Shown here: in pieces, positions 7,312 to 61,217 of the stretch
Position numbering within the stretch: position 1 is the stretch's first letter
Layout: every line of letters begins with the position of its first letter
Source of the DNA: Bryoerythrophyllum caledonicum
Taxonomy: Eukaryota > Streptophyta > Bryopsida > Pottiales > Pottiaceae
Length of the DNA stretch: 64,000 nucleotides
Reading direction: 5' to 3'
Assembly (NCBI GenBank): GCA_963971425.1
Contig: OZ020515.1
Span: 19,960,637 to 20,024,636, forward strand
Notes under the pieces: model-generated
What the model was told of the DNA's origin: nothing
Database searches by the model: none
The model's input: the letters and a program-made list of their open reading frames with translations, nothing else
Position numbers and translations under genes: made by a program

Positions 7312-7313
7312 TA

Positions 7314-15931: not shown

Positions 15932-16068
15932 TCTGGTCTCCATCGGAGAGTGGCGTGAATATAGTGTTTGCTCATTCTATTCACTAAGTCTATGGCCACG
16001 GGACATAGGGTAGTATAATATAAATACTCCCTCTTTCAAGTGTAAACACTTTTCTACACTAAGTGCTT
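15932..16068 (-). mobile_element. Old SINE/LINE 3' tail fragment, unit 2
   Basis: This is the segmental copy of the fragment at 2590-2726 and is almost identical to it. Confidence 0.7.
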
Positions 16069-18940: not shown

Positions 18941-19073
18941 GTTCCTTCCTACAAATACCTAGGGAAAAAGATTGATTTTAGATCTCAAATGTTGAAATGC
19001 AAAATGTTCTAATCAATATGAAGAAGGTTAGATTTGTAGTTCTTACCAACACTAATATCCTAGTCCTTTTCAA

Positions 19074-23031: not shown

Positions 23032-23388
23032 CATGCTCCACTAAATAAAAAAAATTTACTCACCCTTTGAAAGAGATAAAATATTTGGCTCCTAAGGAAA
23101 GGCCTTTGTCCATAAATGGGCCGGTAAAGGTATAGCTCACCCCCACAATGAGGAAACTCAACAAGCACTACATTGGGCCCGACTTGCTGCTAAAAACGCC
23201 CCACAACACATATCTACACTCATTATCACACAAGACAAAAATTGATACCAAAACGCTAATCCACAGTCAAGCCCATTTGCAGACTCCCACATCATTGTAA
23301 TATTTGAAGTAGACTCAATCCCATTCAAAAAACCTAACCCACCTACTACCCCAAATGACGGTAAAACCCCCAATTCTCATTCCCGTGG
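23032..23388 (+). mobile_element. Internal LINE ORF fragment, unit 2
   Basis: This is the segmental copy of 8344-8700, nearly identical and in the same position relative to the kinase gene. Confidence 0.8.
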
Positions 23389-23526
23389 GTCTAGACGTTG
23401 AATCAACACCATTGACCTCGAATGAAGACGATCGAAGAGTCTCCCCAGCAATTTTGAAATCCGGGATGGACTAGGGGGCCCATAGTTGTGGCTTGCCGAG
23501 CTAACGTTAGATGAAACATCGATAGT

Positions 23527-34567: not shown

Positions 34568-37430
34568 AAAATGTAGGGGAAGTAAGGGGGGAATGAGGAA
34601 CGAGTGAGCTCCGTAATTGTTGGTGAGGGGAGGAGGACTTAGGCTCAGATCTAACACCCACGAGCAGTAAGATGTGGCTGAACTTGCTGAGGAGCCCTCG
34701 TTTGCTGTAGATCTGAGTCCAGAGGAGATTTTCGGAAGCAGACTGTGTGTTGGGAAGTGCTCCAGATCTAGATCCAACCAGCTCGTGGAGAAACGTGGTA
34801 GTGCACCAAATCTATGTGTTGAGAGATCTGAAAGCGAGCAAACTGCTGTGGTGATGCATAGGACTGAAAGCGAGCGTGTGTTGGCAAACAACAGAGATGG
34901 AGCAACATTGTGTTGGTGCATAGTCTGAGAGCACTAGACACGTTGAACAGCGAGATCTGACTTAGATCCAGACCACGGAAACAAGATCTGCAATCTCTCA
35001 CTAAGTCCTCTCCACCCCGATCCAGCCACCAAGCCATCCAACATTGCGAAGACAATCAGCACAAGCTCGTACCACAGCAACAACCATCCTCCACGCTTAG
35101 ATACTTTCTACACTCTACACTATGCATGTTTATTGTCTATTTTGTTGAACATCTACCCCCTCTCTCACACTTGCAACTCGCATAGTAGTATCACACTACA
35201 TAGATTGCAACAGGATGACCTAGACGTTAGAAAGCAGTCACAAAAATCACGTGTTAGAGCCCATAGACTAAACACACACCTATCACGCACCACCCTCTCT
35301 CATCACAAAAACACCGCACATAGTATTAGTCCATCACACGCACATAGAAAAGGTCAATCATCACTCACTACTCAAGCACAGATACGTTGCTCTACGACTA
35401 GCAAACTAACCTTGAAAGGCAACACCCTAGCAAAAACAGGAACCAAGCTTCAGTCGGCTTCACCAAACCAACAAGAAGGGCCCCAACATCCAGCGGCGAT
35501 TTGCAACCTAAAAAGCAACCCTCAGCTAACCTCAGCAATCCAACAAGACGAGCCTCAGCAGAGAGGAGCGATCTGCAACAACAAACAAGACGAAAATAAG
35601 AACAAGGAACAACGCAGGAGAGACAAGAATAACCAAGTCGCATCACCCAACCACGCAACAACAAACAAAGGAGAGCTCATTCCCCACACAAGCTGCAGCT
35701 GCGGCATTCAAGCCCCAACACAAGAAGCCGAAGAAGACAGGCCACATCTCACCCGAACCTTTTCTTTGCCCCGTTTTTGTTACACTCTTCGTTTTTGCAT
35801 TTCTTTCTTTTGTTCTGTAACAATATATCACTGCCCAATACCACATCATAGAAGAAAAATAAAAAGTCTAAAAACCTTGACTTCTAGTTGCAGGCAAACA
35901 AGTCATAACCAAGGCATCCAAACCTTGCAGCGAGCAGTCAAACCAAACAGGCAACCACACTACACAAGCACAGCAGGAACGCAGCTCAAAAGGGTTCAGA
36001 TTCATATAGGAGCATGCAACCTACAAATCCGCCACAACCACAACATCCAAGCATCCCACCGAATAGACATAACAAACAGGCCATATCTCACCTTTAACTC
36101 TCTTCCTTTATTGAAATATGTCTACAATCTTTGGATCTGTACTCCTTGCCACTGTTTTGCAGTAGTAAATCATTTTCTTTGTTTCCACGTTCATTGTTAT
36201 TGCTATATAATAGTGTATTGTCATCTAATACTAGAACCTAAGCAACAAAAAAAAAAAAACACAAAAACCCTGACCTATAGCTGCAGGAACACACACCATA
36301 CAGACGCAGTAGACCAACACTCCAATCAAAAAGTGCAGAAGAAAGACGCTCAAGTGAGGAAGGAGATACCCCAAATCACCAAATCAAGAAGCCGACGTTA
36401 TGCTCCGAACCCGACGTTCGAGAGCACCAAAGACAGACATTGTTTGAAGCTGCAAGAAATCAGAAGAATCAGCGCTAACCCTGTAGGTTGGAAGACAGAA
36501 CCAAAAGTACAAACCAAGCACCACCAACAGGAGGTTTCAATACAACAACCTCCATCATGCAAAGAAGAGTCACACCTCAAGCAAGTAGACTCACCTACTT
36601 CAGCAGCGAGCGCCTACAGGAGGAGAAAAATCAGCGAAGTACGTTTGTCGCCTGCCGCAGCACGGTAACACAGGAATAGCCGGCCGCCCCACCCGCCCAC
36701 TTCAACAAACATCCCGAAGGGAATACGTCACAGAGAACGGAGACACCCTCATTCGAAGTCTCCACCCACGCTGCTGCCCGAAGTCCACTCCCCTCAGCGC
36801 CGCAGCCCTAACCCCAGAACTACACAGACGCTGACTGCCAACTCCGTTCCCGACAACACTACCTCGAGAGGCCGCACCCACACAAACGACAACAACATCA
36901 TCTCCAACGGCAGAGGCAAAGGTAAGTTCCCTCACGCATTATATTTTTTGAAACCCTCTCTAACAAACAATAAGTGGAGCAGAAAATACTGGACTCTGTG
37001 CAGAAAGTACCGAAACCCCAGAACTGCACAGACACTGACTGCCAACTCCGTTCACAACAACACTACCTCGAGAGGCCGCACCCATACAAACGACAACATC
37101 ATCTCCAACGCCAGAGGCAAAGGTAAGCTCCCTCACGCATTATATTTTTTGAAACCCTCTCTAACAAACAATAAGTGGAGCAGAAAATACTGGACTCTGT
37201 GCAGAAAGTACCGAAACCAGACATCGAAGCTGAACACAAGCACGCCAGCTCTGCCCACTAGGGCAAAGAGAAGGAAAGGCGCCACCCAAACAAAGAGAGT
37301 CGTTACCAACACCAGCAGCTGCCGCCTCACCTACCACGCGACTTACGCAAAGCAATCCAAGCAACTGACAGTACAAAGACAGTCACTCCAGGTAAATTCC
37401 CGAACCCAACCCCCTTGTTTTTTACCTAAC
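34568..37430 (+). promoter_or_regulatory. LINE 5' leader, partly tandem-repeated
   Basis: The first 400 bp are G-rich, then the composition switches to C/A-rich. A 205-bp unit is present twice at 36811-37217 (starting CCCCAGAACT). A looser repeat links about 35740-35900 with 36075-36290. Long open frames here (for example 35133-36668) are probably a by-product of low G content: their products are low-complexity and match no domain I recognise. The leader probably holds the internal promoter. Confidence 0.6.
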
Positions 37431-39284
37431 ATGACAGGTAACACCAGAAAAAGCTCCAGCATCCACATGGAAGTGGAGACCATGGAGGACAACTCCACAA
37501 CGACCCAAATCACGAAAACATCAAGAAGGATAGACAAGGAAGGTAGTAGCAGCAAAAAAAGCAAGGTCTCCCTAGTACTAAATATGAATACCAATGTAAA
37601 ACCAAATACAACCACATATACACACCCATATACAAAGACAACCACACAACATAAAAAAAACACATACATATACACATACAAAGAAGAATACAATATACAA
37701 AAAATAAAATACCAAAGCCACATACAAGAACAAAAAATCTTAAAACAAAACAAAAAATCCACCTACTACAAAACACTAAATATGAATACCAATATAAAAC
37801 CTACATATACACACCCATATACAAAGACAACCACACAACATCAAAAAAACACATACATACACACATACAAAGACGAAGACACACAATCAAATAAACAAAA
37901 AATAAAATACCAAAACCACATACATAACCAAAAAATTCCAAAACAAAACAAAAAACACATCTATTATAAAATACTAACACTAATTCCCCCAAACAAACAA
38001 GACCCTAATAACATAACTAAGCCTAAAAAAATTATTATTATTAGTGTACAAAAAATAAAAACTCTAAAATACAACACTAAACATACATATCACAAACTCC
38101 TACTACTTCTAGGAGGAGACATAGAAACCAATCCCGGACCCATGCCAAATATACTAAAAAGACAACCTACGTCACATAAGAAAAATGCCAAAATATACTT
38201 CATACCTAATACCATAAAACTACAACCGGAATACGGACACATTGCAAAATCCTTTGCACCTTTTTTAAAAAACACACATACATTACACCATACACATAAC
38301 ACTACACACCCAAACATTGCCCAATTCATACAACAAAAAAATATGCACCCACCACCTCACATACTATATGCACTAATAATCACTACACACCCGAACATAG
38401 ACAAATGTAACCATATCTTAAATACACAAAATTTGAACACAATTACATGGACCAATACACTTCTACAAAATCTACTAAACTTACAAAATCCACCAGAAAG
38501 ACACATTTACACTCCACACCCTTATACTAAATTCCTAATAGACAACCAAAATATTATAAACCATGAGAACTCAATACATAAAAAATTATACGACTTCTTA
38601 CATAGTCAAGAAATACCACCCTCAAATTATACAATAAAACAAAAATTCCCTTACCTCCCAAACAACCTCATAAATGAATCACTAAAATGTCTAGACCCTA
38701 CACCAGAGTACACCCACCCACCCCCACCTCTTCCATACATCCCTCCTCAAAATCAAAACATGAGATCAAACCAAGAAAAAACATACATAATCACATGGAA
38801 TGCCTCCTCACTAAACACTGCCCTTCCGAGTTTACAAACTCTAGTCACAAACACAGACACACCACCAGCCCTCATAGTAATACAAGAAACAAAACTAACC
38901 GCCATAAAATCTACAAAATATATACAAAATATATTTCAAAACTATAAACTCATCTTTAATAATACACATGCACTTACAAGATGCATGCAACAAAGGAGAC
39001 CATACACACCGGGCCGCGGTGGCCTCCTTACATTAATACAAAAAAAATATACATTCCCAGGCAACATCAACAAAATTCCTACCCCAATGCACATATCACC
39101 ATACATTCAAATAATTAAAATTACTAATCACCCACTACAACCGTGGTTAATCTTTCACATGTATATGCCATCCCATCCCGAAGATACTAGATTTCTCTTA
39201 GATATACAAACTATTACATCCCATATTAATAATCATCCCAATCATACATATACTTATTATGTGGAGACTTCAATAGAGACATAG
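37431..39284 (+). CDS. LINE first protein, 2A site and endonuclease N-terminal part
   Basis: I chose the ATG at 37431. The first about 220 residues are polar and lysine-rich, with an internal tandem duplication (about 37577-37780 and 37781-37975; THPYTKTTTQH in both). A 2A motif at 38097-38141 would release this part during translation. After it come about 200 residues of unknown function, then an APE-type endonuclease from about 38785 (TWNASS, then IQETKL with the catalytic Glu, then GRGGLL). The frame breaks near 39255, just before the GDFN motif, which continues in the next frame. The endonuclease would nick target DNA to prime reverse transcription. Confidence 0.8.
   Translation: MTGNTRKSSSIHMEVETMEDNSTTTQITKTSRRIDKEGSSSKKSKVSLVLNMNTNVKPNTTTYTHPYTKTTTQHKKNTYIYTYKEEYNIQKIKYQSHIQEQKILKQNKKSTYYKTLNMNTNIKPTYTHPYTKTTTQHQKNTYIHTYKDEDTQSNKQKIKYQNHIHNQKIPKQNKKHIYYKILTLIPPNKQDPNNITKPKKIIIISVQKIKTLKYNTKHTYHKLLLLLGGDIETNPGPMPNILKRQPTSHKKNAKIYFIPNTIKLQPEYGHIAKSFAPFLKNTHTLHHTHNTTHPNIAQFIQQKNMHPPPHILYALIITTHPNIDKCNHILNTQNLNTITWTNTLLQNLLNLQNPPERHIYTPHPYTKFLIDNQNIINHENSIHKKLYDFLHSQEIPPSNYTIKQKFPYLPNNLINESLKCLDPTPEYTHPPPPLPYIPPQNQNMRSNQEKTYIITWNASSLNTALPSLQTLVTNTDTPPALIVIQETKLTAIKSTKYIQNIFQNYKLIFNNTHALTRCMQQRRPYTPGRGGLLTLIQKKYTFPGNINKIPTPMHISPYIQIIKITNHPLQPWLIFHMYMPSHPEDTRFLLDIQTITSHINNHPNHTYTYYVETSIET
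38097..38141 (+). promoter_or_regulatory. 2A ribosome-skipping motif (LLLLLGGDIETNPGP)
   Basis: The codons read LLLLLGGDIETNPGP. The core DIETNPGP fits the established D-V/I-E-x-N-P-G-P consensus of 2A peptides, with the leucine-rich run normally found upstream. In this family the ribosome fails to form the Gly-Pro bond (between 38138 and 38139), separating the upstream protein from the polyprotein without a protease. An ATG follows immediately. The motif is in frame with the proteins on both sides. Confidence 0.88.
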
Positions 39285-44955: not shown

Positions 44956-44967
44956 ACCTTTATCCCA
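44956..44967. repeat. Target-site duplication, left
   Basis: ACCTTTATCCCA, repeated at 61206-61217. The outer two bases could match by chance, so the true length is 10-12 bp. Confidence 0.85.
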
Positions 44968-45035
44968 GGATTGCTAGTTTGTGAGCGGTGAGCAATGCTC
45001 ACTGAGCGTTGGGACGTGAGCGGTGGGAATTTGAG
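44968..45035 (+). repeat. Left terminal and subterminal inverted repeat of the large transposon
   Basis: Starts GGATTGCTAGTTTGTGAGC, then GGTGAGCAATGCTCACTGAG and further GAGCG-type repeats. The outermost 5-7 bases do not match the right end, which starts CAACGACGCTAGTTTGTGAG on the other strand. Confidence 0.8.
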
Positions 45036-46213
45036 CATTGAATTGTCGGAAATTCAAGGATGATATTTTGTAGAAATTGGATGATTAACCGTGGAGAAGT
45101 GGCAATAGTGTACCCAATTCCCGTGGAAAATTTGGAGTCGTATTGCCTATTTCTATGGAACTTTTGCAGTAGTAGAGCCTGCAATATCCACATTTGAAAC
45201 CTGGATTATGTTCTCTTGTTTTTGAAAATGCATTAAGATTTCATTTTTCTACTGAAATAAATTTTTGCATAAATCACATTTTCATAACATTTCAGTAGTT
45301 TATATTCTATGATTCATTTGTTTACTACATATTAATGCCTCGTGAGAAGTGTTTAAGCCTTAGGATTACAATCCTTAGATGTTTAGAGGAGAAAATGATT
45401 AAAAAAAGAACCACCCAATATATTTTGAACATCATTCATCAACCTAAAAGTGTTTTAGCTATTTATAATTTAAGGTTTAGCTTATACTTAATGATAAATT
45501 GTATTAGGATTGAAGATATATTTACAAATTTTAAACTAGATTCAAAATTGGAGACATCAAAGAGCACCTCCTTTTGTATTGTTGAAAGTTTAGTTTTTAT
45601 GAAGGGGCTAGTTTTTAAGTTGTATGTAAGATTTATTCCACGGTACACCAATTATTTGCCACCTGAATGCCACGTGCAAGTTGTTTCAATGAATTAATTT
45701 CAAACATTGATAGGTTTGTAATTAACTTCCTCAAGAAACTGGGACCATTACAAACAATGGAACATGTGAAAATCTCCAAAACTAGAATTCAAACTCATCC
45801 TGCCATTGTTGCCCCATATTGTTCTAGGATTTAAACGGGAGATCGCAAATAATTGCGTGAGAGGACTTGTTGAAATTGTAGTTTCTGTGAAGGTCTTTAG
45901 GGTCTTTCAATTTTTATGTATGAATGATGCTATATTACCATCAATTTTTTCCTTTATAAAATTGAATTCACAATGTCAAGAACTATAATTTGTACCTTGC
46001 TTTGGATGGATGAATTTTGGGTGGCACCAATTTTCATGTACATCGACAAAAAATTCTCCCAACAATGGCGGGGTTTGAACTGTTGATTTTGATCAACACT
46101 TGTTGCTCGTGAAACATAAATACATGCTAATAGTGGCAAATGAGGTGGCTCGGTGAGAACACTGAAGACGTGGTGGGATTTTCTCGCCACCATTTAATGT
46201 TTTGTTCATTTGA

Positions 46214-46231
46214 GTTGTAAGATCCAACAAA
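46214..46231. repeat. Palindrome site, diverged
   Basis: GTTGTAAGATCCAACAAA, three or four differences from the consensus, with the GATC core kept. Confidence 0.7.
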
Positions 46232-46900
46232 TGATTTGTCATGCCAATTCAGGTAGTGCACAATATACTTTCTTAAGATTTTTTTGCCAATTCATGGCAT
46301 TTGCTAAAATGTTTAAGAAATAAATTTGTAGAAATTGGAGAAATTTTATACTATATCATGTTTATTCAATTACCATTATAACCACGGAGAATATCGAGTT
46401 TTGCTCATGTTAGAGAATGGATTAAATCTACAAAGAGGATGAAATGTTAGACGGAGGATATAGAAGAGAAGTATAGAAAATAGGAAAGAAGTATATTAAA
46501 AACTAAGGAAATAGGAAACTAAGTTAAAAAGACAAATCAATGTGGAGAGAGAAAGGTTTTTTTGAAAATTAGAGGGAAGAAGAGTAGAATAGTGAAGGGA
46601 ATAGAATAAGTACATGGAGGAAAGAGAAGAAATATATACAATGGAGAAAGAAGAGGAAGATGGAAAGAGAAAGAAAATAAAATTTAAGAGGAAGTAAGTA
46701 GGCTACAAATGAAAAAAAATTTTAAAAATAAAATAGAAGGAAGGAAAGTGAACAGTAGGAGAAAAATGAGTCACGAATGGAAAAAACAAATACCGTTAAT
46801 GGAAGAGTGAGTAATCGAGAACCGTTATACAAGGATGTGAATATTACATGGAGAACTTGGTTCAATGCCAAGAAAACATCTAGTCCTGTAGATGGTTGAG

Positions 46901-46918
46901 GTTGTCGGATCCAACAAC
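46901..46918. repeat. Palindrome site, consensus match
   Basis: GTTGTCGGATCCAACAAC, an exact match to the degenerate consensus, isolated from the array by about 3 kb. Confidence 0.9.
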
Positions 46919-47078
46919 TGTCACAAGAATTGGAAGTTTGAAATTTCTATATATTTGTCAATCACACAAGACCAAAGCATTATCACCAAAGCAAATTAAG
47001 ATAGCTGGGATTATTTTAACTTAAACAAGAGAATCGTAACACAACAAACGTAGTGAGTACGACCAGAGAATAACAACA

Positions 47079-49487
47079 CTACTGAAATGACGATGTAGAT
47101 GCTTCTGAGAATTCAAGATCTACCTCAGCTTCAACATCACGATACATAAAGACATCGGAGTTGTACTTAGGACGTGGTATAGACGAGGAAGGCGGCGAGA
47201 ACTGCAAAGCTTGGAGCCTCGCAATGTCTTCCGCATACGACGGAAGAACCCAAGTCTTCGAGGGGGAAACATATTCCCTGCAAGAATCAATATACATCAA
47301 ACACAGACTTAGTAGAAGCTTCTTGATGAAAGAAATGTAGTGAAGAGGAATGTCAGTGTACTCACTTATTCAGGATCTTCAAGTCTTGGCCTCTTCACCG
47401 CTGGAGGATGCATGGTCTTGGAAGTAGTTGGTGCCAAGGTTTTTTTTGCAATTGGAAGAGTTGCCACAGGTAATGCTAGGGTCTGCATTGAAGAAAGGAC
47501 TGCTTCATACAACTCCTTCTCGCTTTCTAGCAAAAAGTTGTGTCTACCAGTAGCGTTGCAGGCACGAATGCTATTACCTAAGAAGAGTTCAATGTGTAAT
47601 TAAAATAAATCCACAGTAATGGAAAGAGAGAAATCAAAAATTCTTTACAACAATGAAGAGACAATAGATAGTATTGGAATTACGTGAAGCAAGTGAAAAG
47701 TCAACCACCACATCACCAGGGCGTGTCAGAGACAATATGAGAGAGGAAAAAAAGTACTCATCCTTCTCCCTTGGACCTCGCCAAGCGCGTTCTCCGTTCT
47801 TCAAAGGAGTTGTGCAATAATTGATAATGGTGTCATTGACACTAAGATCGTATCCCATGGCTAAGAGCTCTAGCACATCCTGGAAAGAGAACTTGGACTT
47901 CCAGATGGTGGAATCTGCGGGCCGACGGACCCGTTTGAGAAGCAAGACCTTCAAAAGGTTGGTCGTAGTAAACTGAGTCTTTGCCGAAGATATAGGCAAG
48001 TGATTAACTCCCGTCCAATCCTTCAGTGCCTCAAAATCAAAAGCCCCATAAAATGAAGATATTTCATCGAGCACTTATCCATTATCAGAGGGAAAAAATA
48101 GAAGCATTGCTCCGTCATCATGCAATACCTCATCAGCAAAATCAAAAAGTTCATCGAAGTACTGCTCATCACGAATGTTCCAGAATGGAACATCTGAAGA
48201 AGGATCTGACACATTGGGGACATGGAAGTCTTCAGGGACATCTGTGATCACAAGATCAGCAGCGCCTTTCATCCATGGTTTCCTGCCACGTGTGCAAGAC
48301 CGATTTGGATTGCACTCCAGAGCAAACCGACATGCAGTATGAATGAAATCCCGTTGTTTCAAAATAGAGGTGTTGAGAATACGCACTTGGCAGGCCAAAG
48401 TCGACATAGTGATATTAGGCACTGGATTTGGCTTCTTCAAAACGGCAGAGGTAAGGGTAATCGGGGAGCTCGTTGCTTCAGTCATGGTCGTGTCCTCTTC
48501 ACCTCCAGAATTCACAACGGAGGCCACCTTCGAAGCCCTAGCTGAGGATTTAGTCGGCTTTGGACCTTTTGCATTGCCCTTCTTTGTGGTAACCTCTGTC
48601 ACAGATGCCCCCGTAGTAGGGCCCTTCTTCTTCTTTCCTGAGGATTTGTCGGCTTCAAGCAATGCCTCTTTCATCAACCCTGTATCTTCATCATTATCTG
48701 ATACCTCTGTAGATTGAGTTAGTAGACACTTTACTTCCTCTTCTACATCTGGACAGAAGTTCTTAGGACACTCCAGATACCAGCAGCATTCGCGGAAATG
48801 CTCCCTGGTATAGTTCTTCTTCTGTAGAGGATTGAAGATAAATGTCTCCATTGAAGAGGCGGGGTCGCACCAACTATGAACCATTGGTGGCAGCTTCTTG
48901 ATAGCCCTAGCAGGTAAGAGTTCCCGCTTCATATACCTTTAAAACTCACGGAAATTGGTGTTAGAATTCAAAGAAGCCAAATTTGCAAATACAATGGAAT
49001 TTGAACTCTAGCTCAATGGTGTGGGTAACGTAGAAGTACCTGAGGCAAAGCCGTTTCACTACTTTGTCGGCATCCTTGACACTCTCAAAAGGCTTTCCCT
49101 TTTGATGCACCATGTCCCCTGTGAAATACCCGAAGAAAGCTTTGTCCCAAAGCGTAATCCGCCATGTCTCAACATAGTCTTCGAAGGACATGAAATCCTT
49201 TGAATTATCTATCCCACCACATAGATCTAAGTATGGAATAAGCTCCTTCTTGGCCATCTCCTCAAGACCGGCCCAAAATGACGCGCGAATAAGAAACTTC
49301 TTTAAATGGTCCTCACTAGCAGGGGGCTTTAGAAAGCGAAGGTCTTGTCTGACGCTTAATGAACTATTCCACCATTTGAGCCAGCAAACCTTATACTGTG
49401 GCTCTACCGATGAGGTTGCAATGAGTTGCAATTTTTCCAGGGTCATCTCAACCTTGGATGCAACATGGACGCTGAGTGGAATATAAC
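47079..49487 (-). pseudogene. Beta-class DNA amino-methyltransferase-like protein, 3' exons
   Basis: Inferred exons: 49040-49487, 47684-48936, 47366-47577 and perhaps 47079-47277. The intron phases between the first three agree. The large exon has an acidic and basic linker, then ADLVITDVPEDF at the position of the catalytic DPPY motif (Asp at 48240-48242). Further on, RPGDVVVDFSLAS corresponds to the SAM-binding DPFAGSG motif and runs across an intron into ACNATGRHNFLLESEKEL, the usual GR-x-x-x-GIE segment. The order catalytic motif then SAM motif is typical of beta-class N4-cytosine/N6-adenine methylases. Both motifs are altered, so activity is doubtful. In-frame stops: TAA at 48075-48077 and TAA at 47366-47368. 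It probably continues the ParB exons upstream. Confidence 0.68.
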
Positions 49488-49963
49488 CTACAAAATCAAG
49501 ACATAAAGTTTGTGAATGCTGCAATCACTTTCTTTCCCTAAGTAAATTTGGTTAAGTATAATATCAATCTAAATATTCATTGATTGAAGCATCAAAGACT
49601 CATCTTCCAAGAAACATTATTTGAAAAGTATAGCCATTCAAAGTTTTCAATACATCAGAGAATACATTGATTCAAGCATGGCAAAAACTAAAGACAAGGG
49701 TGACTACTTTCAAGATCAGTCAAGCATGCCCAAAACTCATGAAATAGAGCAATCATAATTTAAATGGAACGGTATACTTTGAATGGATCATCAAATAGAC
49801 TATAATTGTTCTTATGAGCCATACACATGTCCACAACATATATGTGTCTATACATAGGAGTTTGTGGGTAAATTATTGAGACAAGCAAATGCTTACCGGC
49901 CACCAATTCCACTACGTATAATTCCAAAGTGAATTAGATGTCTTGTTCAGACCTTCATCAATG

Positions 49964-49981
49964 GTTATTGGATCCGACAAC
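49964..49981. repeat. Palindrome site
   Basis: GTTATTGGATCCGACAAC, one difference from consensus, 150 bp outside the dense array. Confidence 0.85.
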
Positions 49982-50113
49982 TCAAAATTCATACCATTGA
50001 CAGAAGCTACTAATCATCTCCAAACATGAAGTCAAATCCAGCAACTGAGAATTATACAAATTAAGCTCTCAAAACTCTAACACAATCACGACGTGCTTAA
50101 TATCTTCGAACTG

Positions 50114-51405
50114 GTTGTAGGATCCAACAACTAGGAACAACACCGATTCAACACAAAGAATCCTAACTATTTCATTGGCTACTTTTCATCTCAAAATCGA
50201 TAGTTGGATCCAACAACTAACAAATATATTAACTTAGCACTCGTGAACTCTAACAGTGTCACCACATAGTCATCAACTCGAAACGGGTTGTCGGATCCAA
50301 CAACCCTGAAAAAAATTTATCAAGTACTGCTCTTCTAAACCATGACGATAAATGTAATGTGCAATTTTATGGCATTGACTACTGCTTGGCTAAAGAGTCC
50401 TTCTTGAAATATTGATTTTCTCGTTATTTTACCATCTCAAATCGATTGTCCGATCCAACAACATATAATTATATTGATTTAGTACTCGGGAACTCTAACA
50501 TTGTCACCACTGAGTCATCAACTGAAAACAAGTTGTTGGATCCGACAACTCTATTAAAAAGTTCCAAGTACTGCTCTTCTAACCCAAGATGATAAATCTA
50601 ATGTGCTATTTCATGCCATTGATTACTGCGTGGCTATATATTCCACCATGAAATATCGAATCAGTCCTTCTTTTATACCAATTCCAGCTACTTATACTAC
50701 TAATTACAGATAACAGCCTCTTTAACTCCCTAAAATCTATCCATAAGCAAAATCACATACACTCTCCCTTGTTTATGATGCTTGGTATGTAAATGTTCCC
50801 TCCAGTTGTCGGAACCGACAACTACTCATTCTCTTAATATTGCATGGTGCTCAAACTTTGAATTTAACTAAACGAATTTCACCATGAAGAAATGCACCAT
50901 ACTTTAATCACAAGGATCTAGGTTGTTGGATCCAACATCAAACATAGTCCAATATTTTCCAATGGTTCGATTCTAGATTTGTTAACTTTAAGTCCAAGAT
51001 CCTTCATATGATGCTTGGTATGTAAATGTTCCCTCCAGTTGTCGGAACCGACAACTACTCATTCTCTTAATATTGCATGGTGCTCAAACTTTGAATTTAA
51101 CTAAACGAATTTCACCATGAAGAAATGCACCATACTTTATTCACAAGGATCTAGGTTGTTGGATCCAACATCAAACATAGTCCAATATTTCCCAATGGTT
51201 TGATTCTAGATTTGTTAATCCTAAGTCCAAGATCCTTCATATGATGCTTGATATGTAAATGTTCCCTCCAGTTGACGGATCCGACAAATATTCATTCTTA
51301 AAATATTGCTTGGTGATCAAACTTTGAATATAATTTAACAAATATCACCTTAAGGAAATGCACTGTACTTTATTCTCAAGGATCTAGGTTGTTGGATCCT
51401 ACATC
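50114..51405. repeat. Phased array of 18-bp palindromes (GTTGTYGGATCCRACAAC)
   Basis: Eleven sites start at 50114, 50200, 50287, 50445, 50532, 50805, 50922, 51038, 51155, 51271 and 51388. Spacing is regular: 86-87 bp in the left part (with 158 and 273 bp gaps) and 116-117 bp between the last six. The centre is GGATCC in most (GGAACC at 50805 and 51038, CGATCC at 50445). Outer arms vary by one or two bases, often with the complementary arm still recognisable. Part of the array is a tandem duplication, but sites also occur singly elsewhere in the element. Confidence 0.92.
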
Positions 51406-51594
51406 ATATAGAGTCTAAAAAAGACCAAAGATAATCCAACTTTCATTAAAGCCTAGGTGATCAGAGTACTACAACAAATGAATCCAACCATGGATAAAGA
51501 TGCCAAGCATTCAAACGACAAATAAATTTACCATGAGTACACAAGTAGATTAAAAATATAATCTTGAACTTAAGAATTTTGCAAGGAAACTTAC

Positions 51595-53018
51595 TTGTTC
51601 TAATAATCCTTTGTATGCCGGATTTGCAATAGAGCTGCACTTGTTGAATACATTGGCCAGCTCATCTCGTTTTTTAGTAACCACCTTCTCTACGTATTTG
51701 TGAAATCCTTCTTCACTTTGGTCAGCTTCCTCAACATCTTCGGAGTATGTTTGTCCGGCCTCTTGTGAGGCTTGGACAATTTCATCCTGATCCAATGTAA
51801 TCCCGTAAGAACCAAATAATAAGTACGACGCCAATATAAATATTGATATTGAACGTGTAGTTAACTTACTTGAAAAATAAAATTAACCATGAGATTCTTG
51901 GTTAAGGGATACCAAGTTTTGATGGTCTTCGTTACACATGCTTTATATTGATCTTCTGTTAGCATTGGTTTATAATACTCCAGCTTGTGACTTCCGTACA
52001 GTTGAATACGATGAAGCGTGTGCACCAATGTAGTTTTGACGTGAGCATTCTAGTTTGCCCTACACATTCAAGTATATTGATTAGATTTTCTGCACCAGGA
52101 TTCAAAACATGAACAATCAATGAAAATATGAATTATGGCTTACTTGTTTATGTCGTGCATGGCCTCTAGAATATCACCTTGACCACCGGAAGTGTCCAAA
52201 ACAACGCAATCCGGATTCCCATGCCTAGAGTGCCAATTAACATCCTCCGCATGCAATGTATCAATAACTTCTTTCCAAGCAAGCAATCGGTGATTGCCAT
52301 CATAGACAAAAAACATGCTACCTGATAAATCTTCCAAATCAGGGTCTGCCAAGAGCCTTTTCTCAAATGCAGAATTTTCCTCAATCCACAAAGCACTCCA
52401 AGACTTCATGTCGTCAGTAGTAACCACCCGCTTATGACCATTCTCATTGTATTCTGATACATACATGGCTGCTGCATGCGGTTGATAGCCAAATCGAAAT
52501 GCACCCATTAATTTGAGAATGTCAGATCGTAGGGTGGGTCTCACCAAAGGCATCGGGATCAGCCGACAGAGTGGAATCTTTATCAAAGACTTAGAGCTCG
52601 GAATCCGGCGCATATTCTCGATCACCTGGAATAAGTTACCTTGAATTAGACCCTCCTGGAGTTTAAGTTCAGCATTTCGCAGATTCACGACTTGACGGCG
52701 AGCACGTTCCTCTGTCGTCATGGGACTTCTCTGGATCTCCATAGGGGGGTTGGTTGGAGAAGGCTCCTCGCCTGCTAATGCTCCTCCTTCGTTTGAATGG
52801 ATGCTAGTAGGTGTGTCAGTCTCAGGAGGGGTCCCCAAATGGGTTTGAAGTAACGGTCTCGAACGTTTTCGAATTAACAGCTCACCTGAAGACTCTCGCT
52901 CTTCTTCATCAAAATTTCCAGCGTCCTTGTCGATCGGAGAGTCCATCACGGCATCCACCATGTCATTCGTTGGAATTGAAGCTTCACTCAGCTGCTCAGC
53001 TACTTCATATGAAGCCAT
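51595..53018 (-). pseudogene. ParB/sulfiredoxin-like domain protein, 5' exons
   Basis: Inferred exons 52144-53018, 51870-52059 and 51595-51786 have matching phases and GTAAG donors. Exon 1 starts with an ATG and has an acidic N-terminus, a basic KRSRP string (49-56), then a ParB/Srx-type fold at about 146-275: SLIKIPLCRLIPMP at the start and the signature FVYDGNHRLLAWKEV (DGNHR at 240-244). In bacteria and phages this fold binds DNA or nucleotides and is often fused to methylases. Exon 2 carries an in-frame TAG at 52050-52052, probably a former Trp codon. The phase at the end of exon 3 does not fit 49487 directly, so an exon in 49488-51594 is missing from my model or the two parts are separate genes. 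Confidence 0.75.
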
Positions 53019-53312
53019 CTACGCACACCAAATCATGTTGAAACCATATGAAGGCAAAGTACTTGTGCAATGACCAATTCTAGCGCCCTAGACTAGCTTT
53101 CAGATCTTTTGGTAATTATTGAGTTCACACAACTCACACTACGCATTGAAAGCACAAGTTATGCATGAACATAAATGATTGTTTGTGATCTCATTTAGAA
53201 CACTCAAAATATGATTCATCAAAATTATCGAAAATCAACACCAGTTTAAATACTGTTTCACATTTCATCACAGATTTTTGTCACACATGCATTTCGGTTC
53301 GCAGTGTTCAAT

Positions 53313-53671
53313 GATCAATGATCTGAAATGCAGTGTTTAATGATCCGATTCAAAGATCACTGAACACGACACATCGTGCATCACTGTGATCAATGATCCG
53401 TGATTCAAAGATTCGAGCATTGATCTAGGGTCATGAATTGTGGAGTCTTTGATTCCAGCATGGATTCCAGCAATGATCCGAAATAAACCTGGAGCAGTGA
53501 TCAATGATCTGAAATGCAGTGTTCATATGATCCGAAATGTAGTGTTCAGTGAACATCACACGATCAATGATCATCGATCACTGAACATCACACAATGAAC
53601 ATCACAGACTTAATTAACATGAATCACTAAACATTAGATCATTCAACTTGGAGTTGGAATATCATTAGATC
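53313..53671. repeat. GATC-dense repeat block
   Basis: Sixteen GATC tetramers in 359 bp, where about 1.4 would be expected by chance. Many sit in repeats of the type TGATCAATGATC(C/T)GAAATG and GCAGTGTTCA. It lies 300-650 bp upstream of the ParB-like start codon. Confidence 0.85.
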
Positions 53672-53795
53672 ACTGAACTTTATCCAACTACAAAGGCAAT
53701 TTCACGTCACTGGTTTTGCATACACATGCATAGCAACGCGAATCAAGTCTAATATCGACACAATGAATTCTAGGATTCAAAGACTCCACGATGTG

Positions 53796-53813
53796 ATTGT
53801 CGGATCCTACAAC
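53796..53813. repeat. Palindrome site upstream of the ParB-like gene
   Basis: ATTGTCGGATCCTACAAC, two differences from consensus, about 780 bp upstream of the minus-strand ATG at 53018. Confidence 0.85.
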
Positions 53814-53852
53814 CTGAATTTAGAATTCCCAAAATCACATTGGTTCACTGAC

Positions 53853-54104
53853 AGCTACGACTTTTACATGAGTATCGACAAGTATCACATGAGTTACTAC
53901 TTGATTAAGTCGTAACTCAGCCATTACAACATGAATCATTACGATAGGAACCATGTCGACTGAATCGTAAGTCAGCTACGACAAGAATCACATGAGTTCT
54001 AATGAACACTGAACTCCAGATATGGTGCTCTAATGATATTCCAGGTTCAGTATTCTCATGAACACTGATACTCGTATGTGCTACGACATGTATCACATGA
54101 GTTC
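53853..54104. repeat. Threefold short repeat, GCTACGAC...ATCACATGAGTT
   Basis: Copies at 53853-53895 (with internal duplication), 53975-53999 and 54080-54104. Function unknown. Confidence 0.6.
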
Positions 54105-54182
54105 GGATCAGCACTACTCGTGCACCAACAAGATCAACATTTTAAGCAACACAAAATCCATGTACAAGTTCACAGTTTCACA

Positions 54183-54200
54183 GTTATCGGATCCTACAAC
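54183..54200. repeat. Palindrome site upstream of the ParB-like gene
   Basis: GTTATCGGATCCTACAAC. Together with 53796 it shares the flanking CTACAACCTGAAT, so the two may be a local duplication. Confidence 0.85.
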
Positions 54201-54629
54201 CTGAATGTACATGCACAAGTTCATATCAGTTTTAAATCCGATCCGCAAGTCTGGACACGACACACAGTTTCGATGGTCCCTGTCGAGGATGGAGAGCTGC
54301 TCCTAGAGTAACGGTGACTCTGTCCTACGTTTTTTTATTAATTATCTTGCTTACAACCTGTCATTAGTGTTAGGTATAAAGAAGAAAAGCAAAAAGTTGA
54401 ATGTTTTCATAATCCCAAACTATGTTTTCAGATCTTCTGGATAGTTGCAATGGCAACACTGATTTTTTTTTAAACTGATGTAGGTAGATTCGTATTCTGC
54501 TTTCAAGCATGACTAGATTTCAGAATTGCTACTCGCTTGGCTCACGGACGCTCAGCACCTTAGCAGTTGCCGCAGATAATTCTCACTTGAGTGCATAGAT
54601 ACACTCTAATATCGACACTCAATGATCTC

Positions 54630-54647
54630 ACTGTTGGAGCCGACAAC
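54630..54647. repeat. Palindrome site, diverged
   Basis: ACTGTTGGAGCCGACAAC: the right arm is intact and the centre is GGAGCC, so no GATC. Confidence 0.65.
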
Positions 54648-55487
54648 GGCAGTTGTCACTATTTAAAGACCGTAGAATTCCTTCTTGATACATATTATCT
54701 CACTAAGAACTTGTTAAGTACTAAACACTTCAGCTGTAGAGTTCGAGGTTTCATGTGATCTGCAGGTATACGGCGTCTAAAATCGGGAAGACGATGAAGC
54801 ACTTCAGCAAGAGCAATTTAATCTTCAAGCAAACCTCATATTGAACCCTAAGTGCAATATCATCTTTAAGCAAACCAGAAACTTGAACCCTAAGAAATCA
54901 TTTCTCGGACTTCACTTAAGAAGCATACAGATCTGGATTTGATGCTTACCAGAACGGCTCCTGGCTCTTCCGCGGTTCCACCAGCCTCACCTCCACAACT
55001 GCTACCGCTCAAGATCACCTGCATCAACGTCTATCAACAAATTAGACTCTACACTCCACAAATCACACGGTACACCACAAAGTTGACCTAAGTTCCAAAA
55101 AGCAGACGCTTACGGCGTTCTGAACCGGCGACATAAGGCCCACGCACATGCGCAGATTTGGCTAGCGACGCCGGCTCACATGGATGGGGTCTGTTCACCA
55201 GAAATAGACCTCTGTTGAGAGTGCTCCTCAACCTCAGCCGAAGTCAGGCAGGCACAAAAAAAATGAGCTGCCTCTCTCAGCCTCAGCCGCCCACTTTTGT
55301 TTTACCCTTATCAACCCTCTGACACTTAAAATTAGAGTAAGTAAAATGCACAAGTCACATAGAAAAGCACTATAAAAGTGTGATGGGGTTTGAGGTTTTT
55401 TTTTACTCAACGCGGCGTACGCTGGCGCACATGCAAGCGACGCGCTCCATGGCGTACGCCGGCTGACTTTCAAATACCCCGAACCCC

Positions 55488-55507
55488 TTCACACCGCGCG
55501 GTGTGAA
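55488..55507. repeat. Perfect 20-bp palindrome
   Basis: TTCACACCGCGCGGTGTGAA, flanked by CCCC and CGGGG, which extends the possible stem. It is in the GC-rich island of the intergenic region. Confidence 0.8.
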
Positions 55508-56311
55508 CGGGGTCGGAGCAGCTGATCCAGGCGCCGCCGCGTGGAACTGCGCCGGCGACGCCGGCTCAGCTCCTGACGTATGTGCATCAGCCTATAGAAA
55601 TTGTGAAGACGCAGGGGAGTTTGACGACCAAGCGGCGATAGGCTATGAGGAGCACGGGCTCAACCCAGGGTTCGAGGAATCTTCGTTCTTGGTGAGATGG
55701 ATGATAAAAGTAGACAGGAGTACGAGGTCATGCAAGTACCATTTCCTCAACCCTCGGGTTGCTCCACATTAAATCTAAGTGCATGACTCCACAAAATCCC
55801 AAGAAAATGCATCCATTCAGTGGTATAGCACCTTGGATTTCGATGACTATTTCAAATTCAAATCTACATAAGATGTCATTACTCTACATATACAACTGAA
55901 CTTACTAGTCTAGACTACAAATTTATTGCTTAACCATACTAATTATTATCTTATGGTTCTGATATTTTAAATGAATGCATGAGTTCTAAAAAGGATTTTT
56001 ATCTTTTAAATATCAATCACTGTCACCGGGGGGCATAATATTCAACATGTATGGTGCCGTATACTGATATTACAACTGGTACTGAAACTGAAATGACCAC
56101 CTCATTAAAGATGTAAGGTGAAGAACCTTCAATCTAGAGGTGTTAACCCTAAATCCAAACGTTTTTGTCCAAAATACTTCATTGTTTTTATCCCCAAACG
56201 TTATGCAGGAATTGAATGTATAGGCCCCAAAATAAAATTAATGAAATACTTGAAATGAATTCTCTACTTTAGCAAATACAACGTGTTAATTCATGTAATG
56301 TTAACAACAAC

Positions 56312-56668
56312 TCAAAGGCAAATAAGATAACCAAATCTTGCCTGTGCTTTGGTTGACTTTGTGTTTGCAACATTTGGGTCTTCTAGCTCCGATCTTCCAC
56401 CATTTCTTCCACTTGTTCCACATCTATCTCTTCCACGACATCTCCCCCCCAATGAAACTTGTACTCCTTCAAATCCTAAAGAGTCGACAAGTGAAGGCTC
56501 TACTTCTTGATTAAAATCTATCGCTCGAACTGTTTCAGATATACCCTCAAACCTCTTGCTTGCAAGCCTCATCCTAGACCTCTTCAACTCCCTCCGCGAG
56601 GAAAAAACAGACGGACGCCTCCCTCTCGTTCGACGGGGTTTGCTCACTCTAGATGAATACTCTTGCAT
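56312..56668 (-). CDS. Small basic open frame, hypothetical
   Basis: An ATG-started frame of 118 residues with a very basic N-terminal half (KPRRTRGRRP, AT-hook-like) and an acidic centre. It is not recognised. It could be a first exon (the end is near a possible AG/GC junction) or chance coding. Confidence 0.3.
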   Translation of the reverse strand: MQEYSSRVSKPRRTRGRRPSVFSSRRELKRSRMRLASKRFEGISETVRAIDFNQEVEPSLVDSLGFEGVQVSLGGRCRGRDRCGTSGRNGGRSELEDPNVANTKSTKAQARFGYLICL

Positions 56669-57332
56669 TTGTCTTAGAAATGAAATGATCTAACCAGAAC
56701 CCCATTTTCTATGATATACTCTCCCATTTCATTCACCATCATGTACAAAAAGCAACAATTGGAACAACATCAACCACGGGACAAGATGTACCAGTGGACC
56801 AATAAAAAAAACGCGTCGCTAATACGGCGATCTGTTTTAGAGCTACCACGTTTTGTTAGCAACCAACTATTTATTGCATACAAAGAAACACCATACACTC
56901 TGACATATCTAGTAAAATCTATACTGGAGTATTACAATAAATCATAGCACTTTCCATTACATTACTCATTCTTTCATTAGATCATTTTCAAATCTTGAAT
57001 CTTCTTGTCTAATTAGGGACTTCTAACCTTCATCCCAACTCTATAATGGAGACTTTTATTACTCTTTGAACCGATACACCTAAAATCATTTTTGAAGGAA
57101 CAACTGTCAACAGCCGTCATTGCATCGTGCATCATCTAATAGTAGATACAACGTATAGTGCGTTTACTATCTACTAAATCTAGATTTTTTGCCCGTCTAA
57201 CGTCACGCCGTTCCATGACGTGCCCCTTTTCTCAACTTCAAGTCTTCAAGAAATACAACTGCTCCACAACACTTGACACTCTCTTTAGGCTTCCTCCCCA
57301 CCTTTTGACTCTTCTCAAAGTTTGGCTATTCA

Positions 57333-60300
57333 ATGGCAACACTTAGAACTGATGATCATTTCATTCCAATCCGAATCCCTTTAGGAGTTGATGGGCTTGC
57401 CTTGGTTACTTCATCGCTCCTTGCACTTCGTTTTGGCTACCGTATAGATACTATCCATATAGAGGAAGAGGTTTTAGATGATGTTGGAAATATCAGCTAC
57501 ACCATGCTTCAACTCAGTATACTTGTGGATGACCAAAAGACTTGGTTTTTGAACGAGGGTACTTACAAAGTGATCGGTTTGACTGACTTGCAGATGCAGG
57601 CATCTATGGAGATCTTGACGCCTGGGAAATCCACCACTTCCAGTGTCAACCCGGTGTTTAACACTCCACAGACGGGCGCACCAGATTCACCCTCGGCTTT
57701 CGTACATCTTACTCCTGCTTCTCCCATTCATATCTCGGACAGCGAAGATGACTTCCCTGAAGAAGATATCGGAGCGCGTACTCCTTCAACCCTCAACCCG
57801 CCATTGGCGTCCATGCACTCCCAACATCAACTTCATCCGACTCCATCTTCCGCATCACGGCCCCCTCTGCATCCCCAAACCCTAGAACGCACTAGTATTG
57901 TGGCGTGTTTGAAGAGTCTCGCCTCTAGGCCGGGGATGAAGAACGCGTTGAAGACCGTCAACTATGCTACAGTGCCCCACAGGAAAGTGGACTTCCTCCC
58001 CTCCACGTACGACGGTGATGTCATCTTCGAGTTGCCTCCTACTTCTATGGACGCCAGCACCTCCAAAGCTAAAAACATGCAAGGTATGGATAAAAAATAC
58101 GACGGCCATTGTTGGTGCCTTACAAAGACTTCAAACATTTTGAATGGAATGGGTCTCACTTTTAGGAGATCCTCTTGTTCTGGACATCTTCGTTGCGATA
58201 ACATGGAATGCGATTATTTAAAGTGCCCCAACAGAGAAGAGCCTTTCAACGAGAAGGAGTGGGTGGGGAACACCCCTATGCCAGTTGGGCCTGGGGCTCA
58301 AGCTCCCAAAGGTTCAACTCTAGTATGTAAGGTATGCAAAACCCCGCCTACCGTTATTGCTACATGTAATGCCATTATCTACTACGTCCAAGGACCTGCA
58401 TCGATGACTCGTGCTTGTGTGCATATTGGCACCCATGACCACCCTGTTGCGTTTGGAACCTGTCGAGAGTCCGAGGCAAAGATCAAGATGTTATTGGGTG
58501 AACACGTGGAGCGAAAACCATTAGCTACGAATTCAGCTATTGCGATGGCAGCAAGCAAAGAGTTCCTTGCTGAACATCTCATTCGTCCCCTAGAATCAGA
58601 GAAGACCATGACAGTAGAAGATATGAAGGACGTCATGGAAAAGTACGCCAACCTCGCCTCTCCAAACGTCAAGAATGCAATCTCATCAGATGAGGGGGTG
58701 TACAACATGGCCCTTTGTCCAGCGAAATATGTTTCCCGGTCAAGGAGGTGACAAGGATAAAGTCTTTGTATTTAAAATGAGTGAGATAGGACCCGGCTCA
58801 GGCGTTGATCTTGTGACAAGGATGCAAGCCGGCAGAGACTTGCAAGATGCGTGGCTCATGTTTGATCATGTCAAACGCGTCAAACAGTGGACCACTATGG
58901 CGTGCCATGTGTACGATTCCCAGTACTGTAGAGTGATGATGATCGCCGTGTGTGACATGCAATCTGAAGATACGGAGGCCCAATGTCTCATGTGGAAGGG
59001 AATCAACGAAGTAATGGCCAGAAATGGGCTCAATTCAATCAACTTCAAAGGATTCATGGCAGATAGCGCTGGTGCAAACTGGAATGCTGTGAGGAAGATC
59101 TACGGTTCTGGTGATCCGCTAGAGGTAATGGCCGATCGTGAGCGCACTTGCCTCCTTCATTGGACTACCTCCATGAATTGCCACACGGACAAGTACATCA
59201 AGAATGAGTTCCAGAATCAGCATCGTCTTCTATGCAAGCAGTACAAGGATTCCAAGACTATAGCCGAATCCGAAGTTCGATACCTTGCAATTCGGGCATG
59301 GTGGCAATCCTGTGGAGCTCCAAACAATGAAGCTCTTAAACAGCTTGGACAATGGCTCGCATTTTGGCACTACCGCTACCGGCAATGGGGTGCCTCCATG
59401 CAAATGGTAAGAGTCCTTTAAGAATCTGAAGTATTTTAGTCGTATTGGTTGTTGGATCCACCAACCTAAATCCTTGTTGTTGACATGTATTCCACAGGAC
59501 CTCACCGATGAAGAACGGGCTGAAATGCCATCTTGTAATTTGACGGAGTCAATTCATAACCGTTGGCTTCAACAGTCCGGAAACAAGGGGAACGACTTGT
59601 ACGATGCAACAGTGGACGACTTCGTACGTGCATTCATGCAATGCACTAACTATTTTCAGTTCTTGAAGGGAGGGCGCTCGGGTAGTGGACCCTCCAAGCA
59701 GGAGTTGCGACTACGCCATGCCCAGAGAATGGGAAAGCCCGAGAAAGTTGTTGAAGCTCTTCATTGCATGCCTAGAGCTAAGGAGTGGTGCACCCGTACG
59801 CCCCATTTTGAAGGAGAGGAAGTCTTTGGGTCTAGCAAGCGGAAGCTTGACCTTCCACTTGGATCCGAGTTTGACAGCCACCGCCCGGACAAGATGAACT
59901 TCTCCCATCCCAAAGTCCCTACCAGATCCACTAGAGCACGCCGGGAGAGTGCGCCTTCAACTCTTGATGTATCTCTCCCTTCTTCTCCTACTTCCTCAGA
60001 CGACGTCCAAATCATGTCCCCATCGGCATCAGCACCTATGGTGTCTTTAAGGGTTACGCATGTCATGAGCGTCCATGAGTCTGAGTGTGATTTGAAGAAA
60101 TGGCACATTGCTCGACTCCCTAAAAATTCAGGGAAGAGTTGCTTTGCTAAGCAGGCCCGGACAGGAAGGACGTGCAAGGAGAAGATTGTGCGCCTGGGTT
60201 AAAGTACTCTTGCTCCGACTTATTCTGGAATTCTACACGTTCGAAGGACATTGAAGGACCAGGTCATGGAGTTCTTCCACTGTGCGGACGACATCGAACG

Positions 60301-60946
60301 TTGTGTAAAGGGAACGAAGAGGAAGTGGGTGAACCACCAACCTCCTGTCCCTACAGTATGGCATGTGCTGAAGGGCACTAATCTCACAAAGGCTGAGATT
60401 ATTAGACTGGAGGAAGCTGGATTCCAGCTTCAAGAACACCGAGAAGTTTCACCAAGGCGTCTGTTTGGAGACGCATCCAATCGAGCAGCACATCCTAGTG
60501 CTATTCCACTACCTTCTATACCCAATGCACATCCAACGACTCGCGATTGTCGCCACATTCGCCGTCTCCCAAACGCCAAGGTCTCGGTGAAGCAGAGAAA
60601 TCGTTGGGAGTCAGCTGGTATTCTCGATGCTCGCATCTCGCAGATTATTCCAATTCCGTATCCGGCTAATGGATGCATCATCTTACTTCACTCAAAAAAG
60701 GCGCAGACTACAACCGAGTATCGGTTGACAATCGGCCCTCTCCCCGATTGTTCTTGTGCAGATTTCAAGGACATGTTGGCATGGACCAAAAAGAGAGGCG
60801 CTTGGTACCACTGCAAGCACCTCTACTACATCTTCCGTGTGGTGTGCAATCTCGATCACGAGGATGACCATTTTGTCCATGCCCCCACTTTCAGCTTCAA
60901 CGAGATCAAGAAAGTCATGGACAAAGGAGTCAATCGTTTCCTGTAG
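57333..60946 (+). pseudogene. Mutator-like transposase with zinc and SWIM domains, broken
   Basis: This would catalyse excision and integration of the element. Inferred exons are 57333-59406 and 59498-60946 (91-nt GTAAGA...CACAG intron, phase 0). Order: a variable N-terminus; a Cys/His cluster at residues about 255-372 (GHCWCL, CKVCKTPP, ACVHIGTHDHP), like the WRKY-GCM1 zinc fold known in some Mutator-like transposases; a DDE-type core with MMIAVCDMQSED, FMADSAGANWNAV and RTCLLHW; and a SWIM finger at about 60748-60830 (CSCADF...CKHLYY, CxC-CxH). Defects: a frame change between about 58680 and 58750 and an in-frame TAA at 60200-60202. The protein was near 1,180 residues. The first exon may lie further upstream. 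Confidence 0.82.
59448..59465. repeat. Palindrome site inside the transposase intron
   Basis: GTTGTTGGATCCACCAAC, one base from consensus, inside the 91-nt intron 59407-59497. Confidence 0.85.
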
Positions 60947-61135
60947 AGGATACCAAAAGCATATTTACTACTATAGGTCAAATTGACAGTCCTTATGTTT
61001 TGCAAATGAAGGCCTCAAAATCCGACAACCCACGGTTATAGGCAGAATTTTATTTTTAAAAATAGAAATATTTGAAAAAATATTCGAATATATTTTTATT
61101 TTTAGTAAAAATTATTTATTTTTAGTAACTTTTTG
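60947..61135. other. Transposase 3' flank, AT-rich
   Basis: Short AT-rich stretch between the transposase stop and the right subterminal repeats. It has a palindrome half-site (ATCCGACAAC) at 61020-61029. Confidence 0.5.
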
Positions 61136-61205
61136 CTCACCACTCATGAAATCACCGCTCACCGCTCATCGCTCAACGCTCATTGCTCACAAACTAGCGT
61201 CGTTG
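61136..61205 (-). repeat. Right terminal and subterminal inverted repeat of the large transposon
   Basis: On the plus strand this is a run of GCTCACC/GCTCATC/GCTCAACG-type repeats ending CTCACAAACTAGCGTCGTTG, the inverted counterpart of the left end. Confidence 0.8.
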
Positions 61206-61217
61206 ACCTTTATCCCA
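61206..61217. repeat. Target-site duplication, right
   Basis: ACCTTTATCCCA, the second copy of 44956-44967, followed directly by the continuing LINE sequence. Confidence 0.85.

Follow-up and report, generated by a model that had tools for sequence, protein, structure and literature searches.

A ParB–methylase-fold protein and private palindrome arrays suggest a self-recognition system in MULE-like transposons of a moss

We analyzed a 64,000-nt stretch of contig OZ020515.1 of the moss Bryoerythrophyllum caledonicum (the window, to which plain coordinates refer) and searched the corresponding genome (437 Mb, 894 contigs). The window holds a DNA transposon at 44966-61205 that resembles Mutator-like elements (MULEs). 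Besides a transposase gene, it carries a gene for a protein, here called ParB-MT, that joins a ParB-like domain to a methyltransferase-like domain. Distant families in the same genome have the same gene pair, together with palindrome arrays that differ between families and diverge along with the protein. We consider it rather probable that these constitute a self-recognition system of MULE-like transposons, in which ParB-MT binds the array of its own family, most likely as a means of anti-silencing.

Palindrome arrays are private to transposon families

The window element contains 18 sites with at most two mismatches from TTGTYGGATCCRACAA, all of them (18/18) non-coding. None occurs elsewhere in the window within three mismatches, so the initial annotation was right to call the palindrome private to the element there. 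The sites are distributed as follows:

49965-51404, 12 sites in ParB-MT intron 3, partly in 233-bp tandem units (50774-51472)
46215-46917, 2 sites past the ParB-MT 3' end (46215, 46902)
53797-54646, 3 sites between the divergent genes (53797, 54184, 54631)
59449-59464, 1 site in the transposase intron

About 11-12 of the 18 are independent, because several derive from 233-bp and ~245-bp tandem repeats. The 233-bp repeat bears two sites, and its unit number varies from 3 to 7 across the 11 elements compared (the window element and 10 further copies); the ten copies have 18-26 sites each. No palindrome family was found in window pieces outside the element, of which five went through a motif-free search and four through the cross-count.

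Genome-wide, exact window-type sites number 192 and the reversed pattern 0. Among 50 listed places of the 192, 38 are within 17 kb of a copy of ParB-MT exon 1, a zone that makes up ~0.4% of the listed stretch. Two diverged copies, at C3:748929-757927 and C3:2348473-2362300, have ParB identities of 82 and 85% and hold 8 and 9 exact window-type sites, respectively, many of them perfect TTGTCGGATCCGACAA.

Twelve other loci were read (L029-L036, L037+L042, L038, L039+L041 and L040), and 11 of them contain an array of palindromes within the gene or close to it, giving nine site types including that of the window. A motif-free search for repeated 16-bp palindromes found arrays in six of the first eight loci, the shuffled sequences (60 per locus) yielding at most 3 members. 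A spacer-tolerant search found arrays in the remaining two, in L038, in L037+L042 and in L039+L041. The first 3 kb of L037, L039 and L040 contain no array. The site types of these loci are:

L029 and L032, NCGTCGGYRCCGACGN
L030 and L038, TCCTCGGTACCGAGGA
L031, NYTTCGGYRCCGAARN
L034, NTCTCGGATCCGAGAN
L033 and L035, GTCTCGTNACGAGAC
L036, CACTGCCGNNNNCGGCAGTG
L037+L042, CCTCTCGNNNCGAGAGG (seen once intron 3 was added)
L039+L041, TGTGCCGNNNNCGGCACA (seen once intron 3 was added)

The densest array is that of L036, with ~20 palindromes GCACTGCCG-nnnn-CGGCAGTGC upstream of the gene (about 185-2130 in gene orientation), many of them at ~65-bp steps.

When the nine site types were counted on 13 loci (the 12 plus the window element), the table was diagonal except for one window-type site in L029; shuffles of 12 loci and four 10-kb control pieces had 0 sites. 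The diagonal itself is partly circular because the consensus strings were taken from the same loci. This circularity does not affect the empty off-diagonal, the genome-wide count or the finding of the L030 site in L038 by a motif-free search.

Judged by protein identity, site type follows ParB kinship. L030 and L038 (84% ParB identity) have the same site, although their silent positions are near saturation (ratio of nonsynonymous to synonymous substitution rates, dN/dS, 0.04) and their upstream regions have hardly anything in common beyond the palindromes and a few adjoining bases. The site is also the same in L029 and L032 (68%). In L030 and L031 (72%) its outer bases differ, in L036 and L039 (68%) the inner part is the same and the outer bases differ, and in L033 and L037 (57%) the inner part is similar.

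ParB-MT is a single gene with a predicted ParB/Srx fold

The initial annotation had recognized ParB-like and methylase-like exons and proposed profile searches for both folds. They are supported by the AlphaFold model and structural matches on one side and by CcrM, DpnA and PF01555 matches on the other. The exons are parts of one spliced minus-strand gene with six exons, a model preferred to one of two separate genes; exons of this gene and of the transposase gene were predicted from splice signals and open frames:

52144-53018, minus strand, exon 1, variable N-terminus and ParB/Srx-fold domain with DGNHR
51870-52059, minus strand, exon 2, in-frame TAG in the window copy
51595-51786, minus strand, exon 3
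49040-49487, minus strand, exon 4, 1 bp short relative to the 10 further copies
47684-48936, minus strand, exon 5, linker plus methylase region (motif IV altered; start of motif I), in-frame TAA in the window copy
47366-47577, minus strand, exon 6, end of the methylase domain and C-terminus

The reading frame is open over 1056 aa in three of 10 copies (c7, c11 and c15). The window copy is broken by the TAG in exon 2, the TAA in exon 5 and the 1-bp frameshift in exon 4. An alternative genetic code was considered for the in-frame TAG and TAA and rejected, as intact copies have no stops at these positions. Between L033 and L035, dN/dS is 0.08-0.18 in four domain blocks, indicating purifying selection.

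A ParB/Srx fold of the exon-1 domain is supported by its AlphaFold model (predicted local distance difference test score, pLDDT, 87.3; predicted template modeling score 0.84), whose best structural matches were ParB, Noc, KorB and Srx; single-sequence prediction gave a pLDDT of 33. Phage ParB proteins were also among the matches, one of them a 479-aa 'DNA methylase'. Profile comparison gave weak matches to DUF1015 (3/8 families, best 0.0027), DndB and DUF6551. A full-length protein search retained 0 of 7116 candidates at E 0.001, an NCBIfam search returned nothing useful, and none of 80 pattern matches to ParB relatives in IMG/VR was confirmed.

These features raise the possibility of a strict ParB-parS-like machine, in which nucleoside triphosphate-dependent clamps would load at the palindromes and spread on or bundle DNA for partition, end pairing or protection. 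The predicted fold, a GxxR-type box II (DGNHR) in all eight aligned families and 15-20 bp palindromes arrayed near the gene agree with it. On the other hand, neither a helix-turn-helix (HTH) nor a C-terminal dimerization domain was recognized in ParB-MT, and some enzymes, Srx and SerK among them, have the fold too (PMC12704722). No ParA-like match was seen among the scanned frames of the element. We regard such a machine as somewhat unlikely in its strict form; it overlaps with self-recognition as a mechanism that could serve it.

The transposon and its transposase

The inverted ends and target duplication described in the initial annotation are real; the bounds are now 44966-61205 and the duplication is 10 rather than 12 bp, the earlier one being too long because the element's terminal CA had been counted in. 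The element is seated in the 3' part of a long interspersed nuclear element (LINE), and flank comparison across copies defined the duplications:

44956-44965, left target-site duplication ACCTTTATCC
44966-45019, plus strand, left terminal inverted repeat, imperfect
61152-61205, minus strand, right terminal inverted repeat, imperfect
61206-61215, right target-site duplication ACCTTTATCC
55136-55593, insert of ~458 bp with 55% GC; nine of the 10 further copies lack it, and c3c, the tenth, does not permit comparison here

The ends, CAGGATTGCTAG at the start and CTAGCGTCGTTG at the finish, are common to the copies, and the terminal repeats show 74% complementarity over 47 nt. Alignment of the 10 further copies with the window element gave long blocks of ~97-98% identity. 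The insert is probably a nested insertion of another element. The right part of c3c (L023/L024) is a related element, inverted and 74-76% identical; the genome search with the transposase lists a match at C3:24689335.

Sola1 transposons make 4-bp target duplications, and a Sola-like duplication of CTAG, which borders inner inverted repeats of the element, would restore the LINE frame, as would a 12-bp repeat (worked out by hand). The 4-bp alternative was rejected because the further copies fix 10 bp: a 10-bp duplication is present in four of the five elements with both flanks (the window element, c2, c11 and c7, the last with 7 of 10 left-flank bases available) and absent from c12, where both flanks were compared. 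Target duplications of MULEs span 8-11 bp, and a SWIM finger is frequent in them (PMC6446971). The 10-bp duplication is within that range, and terminal inverted repeats are a MULE trait as well.

The transposase gene has two exons:

57331-59406, plus strand, exon 1, ~42 bp missing near 58686 in the window copy
59498-60946, plus strand, exon 2, SWIM-like CxC...CxH, in-frame TAA ending at 60202 in the window copy

It is broken in the window by the ~42-bp deletion and the TAA, and open over 1188 aa in four of nine copies (c7, c11, c8 and c3b; c3c left out); in c7 and c11 the ParB-MT gene is open as well. The earlier description as a SWIM-finger Mutator-like transposase would fit CSC...CKH near the C-terminal end, read from the sequence, but the intact protein matched no Pfam model, SWIM included, up to E 10.

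Searching the genome with the exon-1 protein gave 137 matches (134 of 1756 candidates scored). Counted by hand, 48 of the rows, spread over ~42 places, fall in the window's own family, with identities of 53-100% (82-98% for most whole copies); the other 89 are 38-47% identical across the ParB domain. The transposase core gave 150 matches (150 of 2351 candidates scored). Comparing the two match tables by eye, we found 13 distant ParB/transposase pairs, all divergent and 1.1-7.9 kb apart. Their ParB members are:

C6:12149533, C1:4511727, C11:2840662, C2:19142912, C4:26598169, C3:30929977, C521:6249
C14:8608816, C3:24100380, C6:9458481, C4:6426972, C14:12357668, C2:30521938

The module is thus widespread, with other copies and distant families carrying the same gene pair, and the chance capture that the initial annotation had allowed for does not apply. 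Gene order within the module is not fixed, since L030 has a related transposase (41%) behind the ParB-MT gene on the same strand.

Because the transposase belongs to the same module, the palindromes might instead be transposase binding sites, like subterminal sites elsewhere, with a separate role for ParB-MT. The site within the transposase intron and the two in the element's left part would fit this main rival, but 12 of 18 sites lie in ParB-MT intron 3, away from the element ends. Moreover, none of the listed exact window-type sites comes within 17 kb of five transposases that are 80-84% identical in the core (C1:3610816, C1:49278530, C1:51006696, C1:63772802 and C2:13054760), whereas two copies of 82-85% ParB identity, C3:754525 and C3:2356370, are accompanied by 8 and 9; the contrast is only suggestive, because both C3 copies also have 94-95% identical transposases. 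On balance, we consider this explanation unlikely.

In the window, the adjoining LINE contains the peptide GDIETNPGP, which we take to be a 2A-like motif, at 38115-38141 within the long frame 36669-39284. A segment duplication (1-12273 versus 13340-26963, blocks 97.8-98.9% identical) holds two frames twice, presumably for a MEKK-type kinase and a pogo/DDE_1-like transposase.

The methylase fold has an altered catalytic motif

The methylase-region profile matched CcrM (4.1e-9) and DpnA (4e-8). With an E limit of 1, PF01555 was matched in all eight families, most strongly at 9.2e-8, the window family's own score being 21.4 bits, under the Pfam cut-off of 26.7. In these enzymes the aromatic residue of motif IV stacks against the base. 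Catalytic DPPY, or (D/N/S)PP(Y/F/W) more broadly, is absent from all eight aligned families and likewise from all 22 database relatives, among 72, in which search strings located motif IV; the position expected to be aromatic holds D, E or N.

ParB-MT could still have N6/N4 methyltransferase activity and use it to mark the DNA of its own element. It has the beta-class motif order, IV then I, along with the CcrM-like match; residues of the S-adenosylmethionine (SAM)-binding region are partly retained across families, and dN/dS indicates purifying selection on the methylase domain. Nevertheless, activity seems quite improbable because the catalytic motif is missing wherever it is readable. A fold kept by selection after loss of the normal catalytic motif is more likely to be a DNA- or SAM-binding module than a methylase. 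Hence, of the earlier idea that the element marks its own DNA, self-recognition through family-specific arrays is well supported, whereas modification is not.

Weighing self-recognition

The least credible alternative is that the arrays are ordinary tandem repeats without a bound protein: many sites do lie in tandem units and only palindromes were searched for, yet the core TCGGNNCCGA is common to five site types (the window's in part), L030 and L038 kept their site despite near-saturated silent positions and barely alignable upstream DNA, isolated sites exist outside tandem units, and the reversed pattern is absent genome-wide. Repeated private palindromes, isolated and in tandem, near or inside a ParB-fold gene are best explained as putative binding sites of its product.

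A number of observations weigh against self-recognition by ParB-MT. The ParB domain had no Foldseek match at E 0.001 and no match to any Pfam ParBc model, its profile had no relevant match among PDB sequences, and no HTH model matched ParB-MT. Co-divergence alone cannot separate ParB-MT from the transposase as the binder, because both travel together. Within the window family, conservation of the sites does not exceed that of their flanks (0.77% versus 0.83%, p 0.90), and dN/dS among the three intact copies ranges from 0 to 1.24, with too few changes to tell. Twelve of the 50 listed exact sites have no listed exon-1 copy nearby. The searches took in palindromes only, and of the two kinds of array search, 16-bp and spacer-tolerant, shuffle controls cover the first. 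The L037 site was chosen partly for its likeness to the L033 site, and L040, of which 3 kb was read, has a single site, of the L039 type. Other palindromic repeats also occur: a second family of five in the window element, four in L036, GTCGAC-type and further ones in L038, and a second repeat in L037+L042.

Taking both sides together, we infer that ParB-MT is the binder of the palindromes. An element would comprise a SWIM-type transposase gene and a ParB-MT gene, usually divergent, with palindromes in introns and spacers. ParB-MT, probably dimeric, would bind only its own family's array, and the array, once bound, would affect the element as a whole. More faintly, analogy suggests what this may be for: the likeliest use would be to keep the element expressed or accessible despite host silencing, since the same anatomy is known for VANC of the VANDAL MULEs. 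A fuller version can be offered only tentatively. Family-specific ParB-MT clamps might load on private arrays, spread, and exclude or remove silencing marks; the altered methylase fold might read DNA or SAM; and repeated switches of specificity might separate co-resident families.

Relation to known systems

To our knowledge, VANC has neither a ParB nor a methylase domain. VANC/VANDAL of Arabidopsis nevertheless offers the closest parallel in anatomy: MULE-type elements with an accessory DNA-binding protein (here putative), family-specific arrays both intronic and upstream, variation of tandem repeat number between copies, and related proteins with differing motifs (PMC5735166, PMC10398659). 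The VANC21 and VANB21 introns contain VANC21 motifs, as does the DNA upstream of VANA21, and the tandem repeats that hold the motifs vary between copies; a related VANC protein uses another motif, and VANC strips DNA methylation off whole elements (PMC5735166). The VANC21 motif, YAGTATTAY, has nine bases and a single orientation, whereas the moss sites are palindromes of 15-20 bp; anti-silencing is demonstrated for VANC and proposed by analogy for ParB-MT.

A protein of similar composition is known from the 21.5-kb element Sola1-1_Ec32 of Ectocarpus, which encodes a 1104-aa ParB-like and N4/N6 methyltransferase protein; similar proteins are mentioned for green and red algal transposons, and self-binding or self-modification was suggested by the authors (PMC12477816). 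There, too, the protein is encoded opposite the transposase strand in a giant DNA transposon. The element belongs to Sola1 and is not MULE-like, and the accessible part of that report describes no site arrays.

Phage fusions of ParB-CTPase and N6_N4_Mtase also have both folds in one protein of mobile elements (PMC12704722), but the 479-aa phage 'DNA methylase' compares with 1056 aa for ParB-MT, in which ~480 aa separate the two domains. Bacterial ParB-parS shares the fold and palindromic sites near the gene (PMC12704722); the moss system differs in being a eukaryotic transposon, with many site types per genome and with no ParA gene seen and no HTH recognized.

The view that this combination was undescribed therefore holds in part. 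In the open-access literature we found no ParB-methyltransferase protein in a MULE-like plant element, although one is published for algal transposons (PMC12477816). We likewise found no description there of cognate palindrome arrays, of arrays diverging in step with the protein, or of an altered catalytic motif. As far as we could find in print, the private arrays, the co-divergence and the altered motif are new.

Implications

Nine protein/site pairs in one genome turn the published suggestion that such algal proteins bind their own element into a testable code, and these pairs may be ready-made sequence-specific DNA binders. Loss of DPPY across a conserved methylase fold may exemplify how a pseudo-methylase becomes a module for DNA binding. 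If the system is VANC-like, unrelated proteins would twice have given rise to anti-silencing through sequence-specific self-recognition, which would bear on how transposons escape silencing without harm to the host.

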